Of a DNA stretch of 64,000 nt, positions 57,116-64,000 are shown one piece after another. How positions within the stretch are numbered: position 1 is the stretch's first letter; every line of letters starts with the position of its first letter. Source of the stretch: an uncultured Planctomycetota bacterium (GTDB lineage: Bacteria > Planctomycetota > Brocadiia > CAIUPP01); NCBI GenBank assembly GCA_903901045.1, contig CAIUPP010000120.1:1-64000 (forward strand), given 5' to 3'. A model generated the notes under the pieces. The model had not been told where the DNA came from and did no database searches. It saw only the letters and a list, made by a program, of their open reading frames with translations. The position numbers and the translations under genes are program-made.

Positions 57116-58801
<1,686 letters not shown>

Positions 58802-58870
58802 TTATTATGAACCGCCGAACGGCCGGCAGCTCATTCGGAGCCGCGGAACTTCGCGACTCCGGCGGCGTCA

Positions 58871-59158
58871 TTACTCGACCTTGGCCAGGACGTCGGACTC
58901 CCGCATGATCAGGAGTTCTTTGCCGTCCACCTTGATCTCCGTGCCGCCGTAGCGGGCGTAGAGGATCATGTCGCCTTTCTTGACGCTCATCGGGGCGCGC
59001 TTGCCGTCGTCCAGCAGCTTGCCTTCGCCGATAGCGACCACTTTGCCCTTCTGCGGCTTTTCCTTGGCGGTATCGGGCAGCACAATGCCGCCGGCCGTCT
59101 TGGTTTCAGCTTCCACCGGCTCGACCACGATTCGATCATCAAGGGGACGCACGTTCAT
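58871..59158 (-). CDS. groES: Co-chaperonin GroES
   Basis: A 95-residue 10-kDa co-chaperonin that caps GroEL. It has [21 protein letters not shown] and [20 protein letters not shown], then [17 protein letters not shown], all typical. The mobile loop is in the [11 protein letters not shown] region. The ATG is preceded by ATAGGAGG. It lies between groEL2 (69 bases upstream) and groEL1, an arrangement that may let one GroES serve both rings. Confidence 0.96.
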
Positions 59159-59227
59159 TGGTAAGACCTCCTATATCTGTTATCTATTACTATACTTGTG
59201 CCAAATTGGGTTCGTTTTGCAGCGGGC

Positions 59228-61413
<2,186 letters not shown>

Positions 61414-61962: not shown

Positions 61963-62041
61963 CGATGACTTCTCCTCCAATATCCGGGACGTTCCGGATC
62001 GTTGTCCCCCGGAACCGACACTGTGACTAAATAGGTTTATG

Positions 62042-62108
62042 TCCCCGGAATATCTCCGGAATATCTGTCCCCGGAATATCCGGAATATCACGGAATATCC
62101 GCAATATG
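62042..62108. repeat. Tandem CCGGAATATC-type repeats
   Basis: GGAATATC recurs five times (as CCCCGGAATATC, CCGGAATATC, GTCCCCGGAATATC, CCGGAATATC, ACGGAATATC) between 62049 and 62100. A related GGATATCCGGATATCTGGG lies near 62746. Such arrays often flank REP-type palindromes. The repeats overlap the last residues of the ESCO-like protein. Confidence 0.6.
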
Positions 62109-62717
62109 AATCCCTTCAGGGCAGACGGCTCTCGCAAGCGCCTCTCCTTCGGGTTCTGTCAACGGTGTAGTCCATCCGAGGCGCGCAGGCGTGATCGTGA
62201 AGTAACGCGCTGCTTCTGCGATCAGTCGTCGAGCGAATCCCATCCTACGCTTGCTTCGAGCGACCCAAGCAAAATTGACTGCCCACTCCGTGGGCGGGTT
62301 GGCAATGTCCCTAAACTCGTGCTCCCTGTATTCCTGCCACGTGCATTCCCATCTCTGCGGCAGTTTGCCGAGTACTACAAGGCCGATGATGAACGTGCCC
62401 TGATATAGCAGAAACATGTGTATGTCGCTGTTGTCGGGACAATCCGATGGTACGTATGCCGGGAAGTCAAAGTGGGTATCGCGGTTGGCGACTGATGAGA
62501 CAAGGTTGGCGCGCGCTTTCTGTGCACGGTGTGACCTGAAGTTCACGGCGGTAATTCGTTCGTTGCCCTCTTGCCATACGATCCTGTCTGTCTTAAGCGG
62601 TCTGGCAGGAAAACGAAGAGTCTGTTTGTTGTGATGCCGACGATGCGAGCGCCTATCTTCCGGGGATTCGGAGACGTAACGCATTCCGCACGCAGGGCAT
62701 AATGCTGTGCACACCAT
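62088..62717 (-). CDS. Eco1/ESCO-like protein: C2H2 zinc finger plus GNAT acetyltransferase
   Basis: A 209-residue protein. Residues 7-29 form a C2H2 finger with Cys7, Cys10, His25 and His29 (C-x2-C-x14-H-x3-H), including ACGMRY and SPED, which match the finger of eukaryotic Eco1/ESCO cohesin acetyltransferases as I remember it (CGMxY...PED...H-x3-H). After a middle region (DRIVWQEGNERITAV), residues about 100-200 are a GNAT domain: IIGLVVLG, AWVARSKRRMGFARRLIAEA (acetyl-CoA site) and WTTPLTEPEGEALA, placed like FSxPTxxGxALA of Eco1. I know of no bacterial cohesin acetylation. The last residues overlap tandem repeats. The role is unknown; N-acetyl transfer is inferred. Confidence 0.75.
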   Translation of the reverse strand: MVCTALCPACGMRYVSESPEDRRSHRRHHNKQTLRFPARPLKTDRIVWQEGNERITAVNFRSHRAQKARANLVSSVANRDTHFDFPAYVPSDCPDNSDIHMFLLYQGTFIIGLVVLGKLPQRWECTWQEYREHEFRDIANPPTEWAVNFAWVARSKRRMGFARRLIAEAARYFTITPARLGWTTPLTEPEGEALARAVCPEGIHIADIP

Positions 62718-62861
62718 GAGATAATGAGACCAATTCTACGGAAAAGGATATCCGGATATCTGGGGGCACACGACCTATTTCCCCTCCACCGAGAATGGGC
62801 CGTGTGTCCCAGTATTTCCGAGAACTCCCGGAACTCTCCAGAACTCGAATGCCGTGTCGAG

Positions 62862-63569: not shown

Positions 63570-64000
63570 CGCATAATCCTTTTCATGGAGCCATAGCATC
63601 CGGGAGTTCCCGGTAGTGCATCACTTGCGCGCGATGTCATTCTGAGCGTGGCGAAGAATCTTTCGGCAGATCAACCTCCAGCGCTTCGAAAGACCCTTCG
63701 CTGCGCTCAGGGTGACAATTTGCAGGCCCTTCCCGCGCGTAAGTGATGCACTACCAAGTTCCGGGACAACCTGCGGTTCACGACCACCGTGAACCTGCTT
63801 ATCAGTATCATACCTTCCGCGGGTGCAGGAGCAAGAGGCCCTTCGGCAGATTTTGCCGCGATGGCGCGAAAACTCGTCAAGGCAACCGGCGGCTGAATTG
63901 TGGAATTCCGGCGACATACGGCCGATTTCCCCTCTACCGAAGAGGAGTCCTCTGCCCCAGAATCCTGTGGGGGGGGGGGCGAGGTGGGGACAAAACTTTC
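63570..64000. other. Gene-free end of the window with palindrome and G run
   Basis: The region contains the palindromic element at 63612-63754, then about 200 bases with no convincing gene, and TTTCCCCTCTACCGA near 63920 that echoes TTTCCCCTCCACCGA at 62778. An 11-base G run at about 63969-63979 follows, after which the sequence ends; it is a likely assembly break point. Confidence 0.55.
63612..63754. repeat. Long imperfect palindromic element
   Basis: GGTAGTGCATCACTT at 63612 is matched in inverse by AAGTGATGCACTACC ending at 63754. Inside, TGTCATTCTGAGCGTGGCGA and the reverse of TCGCTGCGCTCAGGGTGACA also pair. It resembles the weaker element at 17244-17320. It lies just upstream of the DNRLRE gene and has no ORF. 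Confidence 0.7.

Follow-up and report, generated by a model that had tools for sequence, protein, structure and literature searches.

The window, by which we mean the whole stretch of 64,000 nucleotides that was analysed, encodes on its minus strand a protein of 209 residues (labelled P0003) which is a relative of the cohesin acetyltransferases Eco1/ESCO, the eukaryotic enzymes that secure sister chromosomes to each other, not a member of the ESCO family proper. We hold it very likely that this kinship is one of sequence, of architecture and, through a sister protein from another planctomycete, of fold. On balance we favour the view that the protein is an acetyltransferase which uses acetyl-CoA and belongs to the ESCO/Eco1 GNAT lineage, carried as mobile-element cargo and most likely modifying a lysine or other amine of a host or element protein. 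The features on which this reading is based are the following.

62088..62717, minus strand: coding sequence, 209 aa, ESCO-like zinc finger followed by a GNAT acetyltransferase; ATG start at 62717, stop codon at 62088-62090
62625..62699, minus strand: C2H2 zinc finger (zf-C2H2_3), residues 7-31; PF13878 score 35 bits, cut-off 27
62091..62591, minus strand: GNAT domain, about residues 43-209, from a GNAT-only profile and predicted secondary structure
62337..62339, minus strand: W127, aligned with W623 of the substrate hairpin of xEco2 in a seven-protein alignment
62232..62249, minus strand: RRMGFA, residues 157-162, the R-x-x-G-x-A acetyl-CoA motif of GNATs, aligned with RRKRIA of Esco2
62040..62107, no strand assigned: short GGAATATC repeats at the 3' end of the gene (repeat families D2 and D4)

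Over positions 62088-62717 the plus strand is interrupted by stop codons, and the real open frame is that of the minus strand; the earlier note on this DNA had named no strand. The gene has a GC content of 0.556 and a GC3 of 0.59, against a GC3 of 0.72-0.88 in the neighbouring genes. It is solitary, flanked by an isochorismatase gene, a CBM96 gene and short repeats, in agreement with the earlier note on this DNA, which had placed it apart from operons and beside repeat DNA. The repeats at 62040..62107 form one arm of an imperfect inverted pair (I5) whose other arm lies at 62751-62766, so that the pair brackets the gene; with 81% identity over 16 nt it may be due to chance. Next to the window copy, no gene of a phage or other mobile element was recognised, and PADLOC, PHROGs and NCBIfam gave no match for the protein. 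Elsewhere in the window, a repeat-rich intergenic stretch contains at 63612-63755 a 22-nt inverted repeat (95%) with arms 100 nt apart, possibly a miniature element.

The kinship with ESCO was apparent at the level of single sequences. A phmmer search of all PDB chains with the window protein retrieved mouse Esco2 with an E-value of 7.9e-9 over residues 4-173, and nothing comparable was found among these chains outside ESCO. A profile combining P0003, its sister P0002 and the Streptomyces relative P0001 matched, over positions 4-188, Esco2 with an E-value of 2.1e-12 and ESCO1 with one of 1e-7; the first PDB sequence outside ESCO came at 0.094. Comparison of profile with profile by hhalign gave 96.7% and an E-value of 3.3e-10 for ESCO. 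When the finger was removed, Esco2 was still the best PDB match of the GNAT-only profile (E 1.6e-4), with an aminoglycoside acetyltransferase as runner-up (E 0.016); the corresponding hhalign comparison with ESCO was weak (20%, E 0.0011). An HMM built from ESCO1, Esco2 and xEco2 gave 25.6 bits to the window protein and 24.2 bits to P0002, while the best of 6,000 composition-preserving shuffles reached 8.4 bits. Neither the Streptomyces protein (4.9 bits) nor a fragment from genome G033 (5.9 bits) rose above the shuffles. The match to ESCO is colinear through the finger, the linker, the first strands and the GNAT core. The order of finger and GNAT domain described in the earlier note was thus confirmed, with homology to ESCO along almost all of the protein, and the outcome which that note had considered fatal, no significant match to either ESCO family, was not observed, given the Esco2 match above and a PF13878 score over the cut-off.

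That score, 35 bits with an E-value of 1.3e-8, exceeds the curated cut-off of 27. The finger reads C7-P-A-C10-G-M-R-Y-V-S-E-S-P-E-D-R-R-S-H25-R-R-H-H29, that is C-x2-C-x14-H-x3-H, a spacing identical to that of ESCO1 (CNVCGMLYTASNPEDETQHLLFH) and ESCO2, and both the CGM-x-Y motif (here CGMRY) and the PED motif that had been pointed out are present. All four zinc ligands are kept, C7, C10, H25 and H29 aligning with C386, C389, H404 and H408 of Esco2. In ESCO, the finger supports activity. At a threshold of 1e-4, this genome alone among 294 sampled genomes of the phylum produced a match. The finger is also intact in the sister P0002 (PF13878 29 bits, above the cut-off), which answers the concern that it might be absent in homologues. 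Weak PF13878 matches in two other genomes (G029 and G055) were rejected as unrelated; they correspond to a 174-aa Nudix-like zinc ribbon protein, a 115-aa protein with a CPKCGM stretch and a chance frame.

The two GNAT stretches near the C-terminus were found where they had been claimed, RRMGFA at residues 157-162 and WTTPLTEPEGEALARAVCP at residues 182-200. The first conforms to the R/Q-x-x-G-x-G/A acetyl-CoA motif of the GNAT superfamily (R157-R-M-G160-F-A162), from which we infer that the protein would bind acetyl-CoA. The glycine of this motif is kept in the bacterial proteins and missing in the aligned vertebrate ESCOs. The active site was compared in an alignment of four bacterial and three vertebrate proteins, anchored on the published numbering, with exact agreement for R621, W623, E594 and D677 of xEco2 and for E491, S527, S566 and D567 of Esco2 (PMC5349539, PMC7300003). 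The hairpin tryptophan (W127) was invariant in all seven proteins; its xEco2 counterpart W623 contacts the Smc3 peptide (PMC5349539). The candidate catalytic residues of mouse Esco2 are E491, S527, S566 and D567, the last being a glutamine in yeast Eco1 (PMC7300003). None of the four is kept in the window protein, which has G117, N148, T183 and T184 at these positions. Among the four bacterial proteins, E491 is replaced by G, Q, H and A, and S527 by N, I, D and G; S566 corresponds to T, C, S and E, and D567 to T, S, T and L. Activity is not assured, because the four candidate catalytic residues are replaced and vary among the relatives as well; we nevertheless consider it likely that the protein is catalytically active.

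Family profiles for the acetyltransferase part gave scores below their cut-offs. The window protein reached 16.3 bits with PF13880 (Acetyltransf_13, cut-off 22.8), a search of the genome with this family also giving no match over the cut-off, and 17.6 bits with PF00583 (Acetyltransf_1, cut-off 20.7), a family with which the Streptomyces relative P0001 scored 28.2 bits. Taken by itself, PF13880 was discarded as a marker, because further GNAT-like frames in the phylum also match it with scores close to the cut-off. Of the pair of domains which the earlier note took as defining ESCO, the finger stood with its PF13878 match, whereas the acetyltransferase part fell short of PF13880 and had its catalytic residues replaced.

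Structure models were computed for the window protein and for P0002, each from an alignment of two sequences that left out the Streptomyces and G033 proteins, and the confidence of both models is low because only two sequences were used. In the window protein model (pLDDT 49, pTM 0.40), the predicted secondary structure is, at this low confidence, of the GNAT type. The order of its predicted elements fits ESCO: the finger consists of two strands and one helix, after which come a strand, another strand, a helix and the GNAT core. With this model (pLDDT 49), the best 11 chains retrieved by Foldseek were all ESCO/Eco1 (E 6e-6 to 5e-4), the next one following at 0.017; VIA-align placed ESCO level with HAT1 and MYST at a Z of about 5, without separating them. 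The sister model (pLDDT 55, pTM 0.57) gave a clearer ranking. Ten ESCO chains came first in Foldseek, and in VIA-align six ESCO/Eco1 entries were best, with Z of 12.7-13.9 over 139-145 residues at 18-21% identity, the best other GNAT reaching a Z of 10.2. The earlier note had held that a RimI-like fold would speak against it; the nearest fold of the sister is that of ESCO, and with the model of the window protein itself Foldseek put ESCO first, while VIA-align left it level with the others.

The sister gene comes from the genome of Planctomycetota bacterium isolate KLAP200 (G414), and its product is 32% identical to the window protein over the full length. It lies between the genes for the terminase large subunit and the portal protein; genes for a capsid-protease fusion, for head decoration and for the tail follow (PHROGs), indicating a clear prophage. 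Its GC3 is 0.62 and that of the two adjacent ORFs 0.59-0.62, against 0.83-0.85 in the phage structural genes, which points to a cargo insertion. In both planctomycetes GC3 is lower in the gene than in those around it, and the family is very rare; the gene thus has the look of mobile cargo, which we regard as quite probable. The two ORFs that adjoin the sister gene (L011:8690-9804, minus strand) encode 119 and 231 aa; neither Pfam nor PHROGs gave a match for them, and they are apparently part of one terminase-portal cargo block with it. Near the prophage, a 986-aa ORF of a DEAD-type helicase (L034:7928-10888, minus strand) seems to be interrupted by an insert resembling an intein (start CLDMETEVLTSSGW, end VVGNCGRGFR).

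Other relatives were few. P0001 is encoded on a linear plasmid of Streptomyces; its GNAT domain is clear, its finger is looser (C-x-C-G-M, H-x3-H), and its sole link to the family is the match to the window protein (tblastn E 9e-4, 47 bits). The G033 fragment (L013:4677-5027, minus strand) comprises a GNAT part with the same C-terminal motif (GWELPFTASGCEFVRRISP), is truncated by stops upstream and has no finger; it scores just over the PF13880 cut-off and looks like a decayed relative. As a GNAT fragment without finger, it was dropped as evidence on the finger. Profile sampling of genomes covered the Planctomycetota, in which the family was present in 3 of 392 genomes, one of the three being that of the fragment, in 1 of 337 genomes of the sister's class and in 1 of 370 of its order. 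The gene was absent from the other genomes of the sister's genus and from one family relative of the window host. Viral contigs scanned with single proteins and with alignments, including a vertebrate ESCO alignment, yielded no confirmed relative, and the phage records searched contained none. The plasmids searched provided the Streptomyces record only, and a scan of genome contigs for the finger pattern recovered P0002 only.

Several other explanations were weighed against these data. An ordinary bacterial GNAT might have gained a C2H2 finger independently, the likeness to ESCO being convergence; this is disfavoured and appears improbable to us. It would accommodate the weak GNAT-only hhalign comparison (E 0.0011), the ESCO active site not being conserved, and PF13880 falling below its cut-off here yet matching other GNAT-like frames of the phylum near it. 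However, the finger spacing is identical and the CGM-x-Y...ED pattern is shared, the match runs colinearly from the finger through the GNAT core, ESCO2 still comes first, a hundredfold ahead, when the GNAT part is taken alone, and in the structural ranking of the sister a gap of 2.5 Z units lies between ESCO and every other GNAT. We can hardly credit that the frame is a spurious or decayed ORF without function, since it is open, a second planctomycete has a homologue that is 32% identical to its product over the full length, and both the CoA motif and all four zinc ligands are preserved, even though its solitary position between short repeats, the absence of a clear ribosome-binding site by eye and the truncated relative in G033 would fit such an origin. 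Eco1 acts on cohesin through two Smc3 lysines, and the earlier note had implied a comparable acetylation of SMC. The check for a lysine pair went against this claim. The host SMC is complete (1226 aa), and its loop RRLYRSGESEYFLN (R-R-L-Y-R-S-G-E-S-E-Y-F-L-N) has no lysine at the Smc3 site: with the Smc3 motif taken from the literature (I102, A104, K105, K106, D107, Y109; PMC5349539) and anchored on the tyrosine, S-G-E-S stands against A104-K105-K106-D107 before Y109. Solved bacterial SMC heads have a like loop (RRVYRSGESEF); the host loop is identical in a relative of the same family that has no copy of the gene, and reads TSGESEY in G033 and RDGTSEY in the sister's host. A role at the Smc3-equivalent site is unlikely, as there is no lysine there in the host SMC. 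That the enzyme acetylates the host SMC complex, as a bacterial counterpart of cohesin acetylation, therefore strikes us as very doubtful. The ESCO-like architecture, the conserved hairpin tryptophan, which in xEco2 touches the Smc3 peptide (PMC5349539), and the full SMC of the host would agree with it, but the loop speaks against it, as do the contrast between a near universal SMC and a very rare gene and the replacement of the ESCO catalytic residues. We do not file the protein as an ESCO member, because three tested traits depart from ESCO, namely its PF13880 score, its catalytic residues and the substrate site.

A different question is where the gene came from. We think it possible, though not likely, that a eukaryotic ESCO gene was acquired by a phage or bacterium and then diverged towards a new role. 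ESCO is widespread in eukaryotes and the bacterial family rare in our sample; the patchy distribution (3 of 392 genomes of the phylum, 1 of 370 in the sister's order) and the foreign base composition of the gene would also fit such a transfer. However, the bacterial members are 22-32% identical to the window protein and vertebrate ESCO 18-24%; the bacterial members being about as far from it as vertebrate ESCO, any transfer would be old, not recent. Against it stand also the settings of the members, in a planctomycete chromosome, in a planctomycete prophage and, more remotely, on a Streptomyces plasmid, and the RxxGxA glycine shared by the bacterial proteins and missing in the aligned vertebrate ESCOs. 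More speculatively, phages and other bacterial mobile elements may harbour a diverse family of finger-GNAT acetyltransferases that resemble ESCO and are of old origin, the eukaryotic cohesin acetyltransferase having been recruited from this pool at the origin of eukaryotes; the bacterial substrate would then be the ancestral one and would lie outside SMC.

Our preferred reading remains that of an ESCO-lineage acetyltransferase carried as mobile cargo, probably a bacterial and phage-borne branch of this lineage that acts as a lysine acetyltransferase outside SMC. The C2H2 finger, placed directly before the GNAT fold, would pack on or serve the GNAT domain, and the enzyme would acetylate a lysine, or some other amine, in a protein of the host or of the element, but not the Smc3-like position in the host's SMC. 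That the target is a protein lysine is a guess, towards which we lean. By analogy, the enzyme may serve its element as the phage GNAT Rac modifies the host RNA polymerase. Rac of phiKMV-like phages is likewise a phage-borne GNAT, of a kind known or predicted to modify host proteins, and acetylates RNA polymerase (PMC7824862). The passages on Rac describe neither a zinc finger nor ESCO kinship for it (PMC7824862), the comparison being one of descriptions. MYST histone acetyltransferases also join a zinc finger to a GNAT-related fold, but they stand lower in the fold lists, show no sequence match, and are ranked below all ESCO entries with the sister model. Eco1/Ctf7/ESCO1/ESCO2 (PF13878 with PF13880) share with the window protein the same finger spacing directly before the GNAT domain, a colinear match (E 2e-12) and the hairpin tryptophan, and provide the nearest solved fold for the sister protein. 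In contrast to them, the window protein has no long N-terminal extension, scores below the PF13880 cut-off and has E491, S527, S566 and D567 replaced, and its host has no cohesin-type Smc3 lysine pair.

We know of no cohesin in bacteria, so the family either has to serve another purpose or points to the source of the eukaryotic enzyme. Cohesin has been treated as a eukaryotic invention (PMC12188315). No report of a bacterial ESCO relative was found in the open-access papers searched; Pfam may list bacterial PF13878 sequences without comment. The finger-GNAT architecture of ESCO is not confined to eukaryotes, the same build occurring in bacteria and in a prophage, and the bacterial proteins provide an outgroup for the ESCO family, with a changed active site. 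Two questions thereby become testable, namely what job such an enzyme has where there is no cohesin, and whether bacterial mobile elements were the source or the recipients of Eco1.

As a separate observation, two copies of groEL, separated by a single groES, lie on the minus strand at 57116-60931 of the window, and a glycine-methionine rich tail is present in only one of the two GroEL copies (59228-60931).
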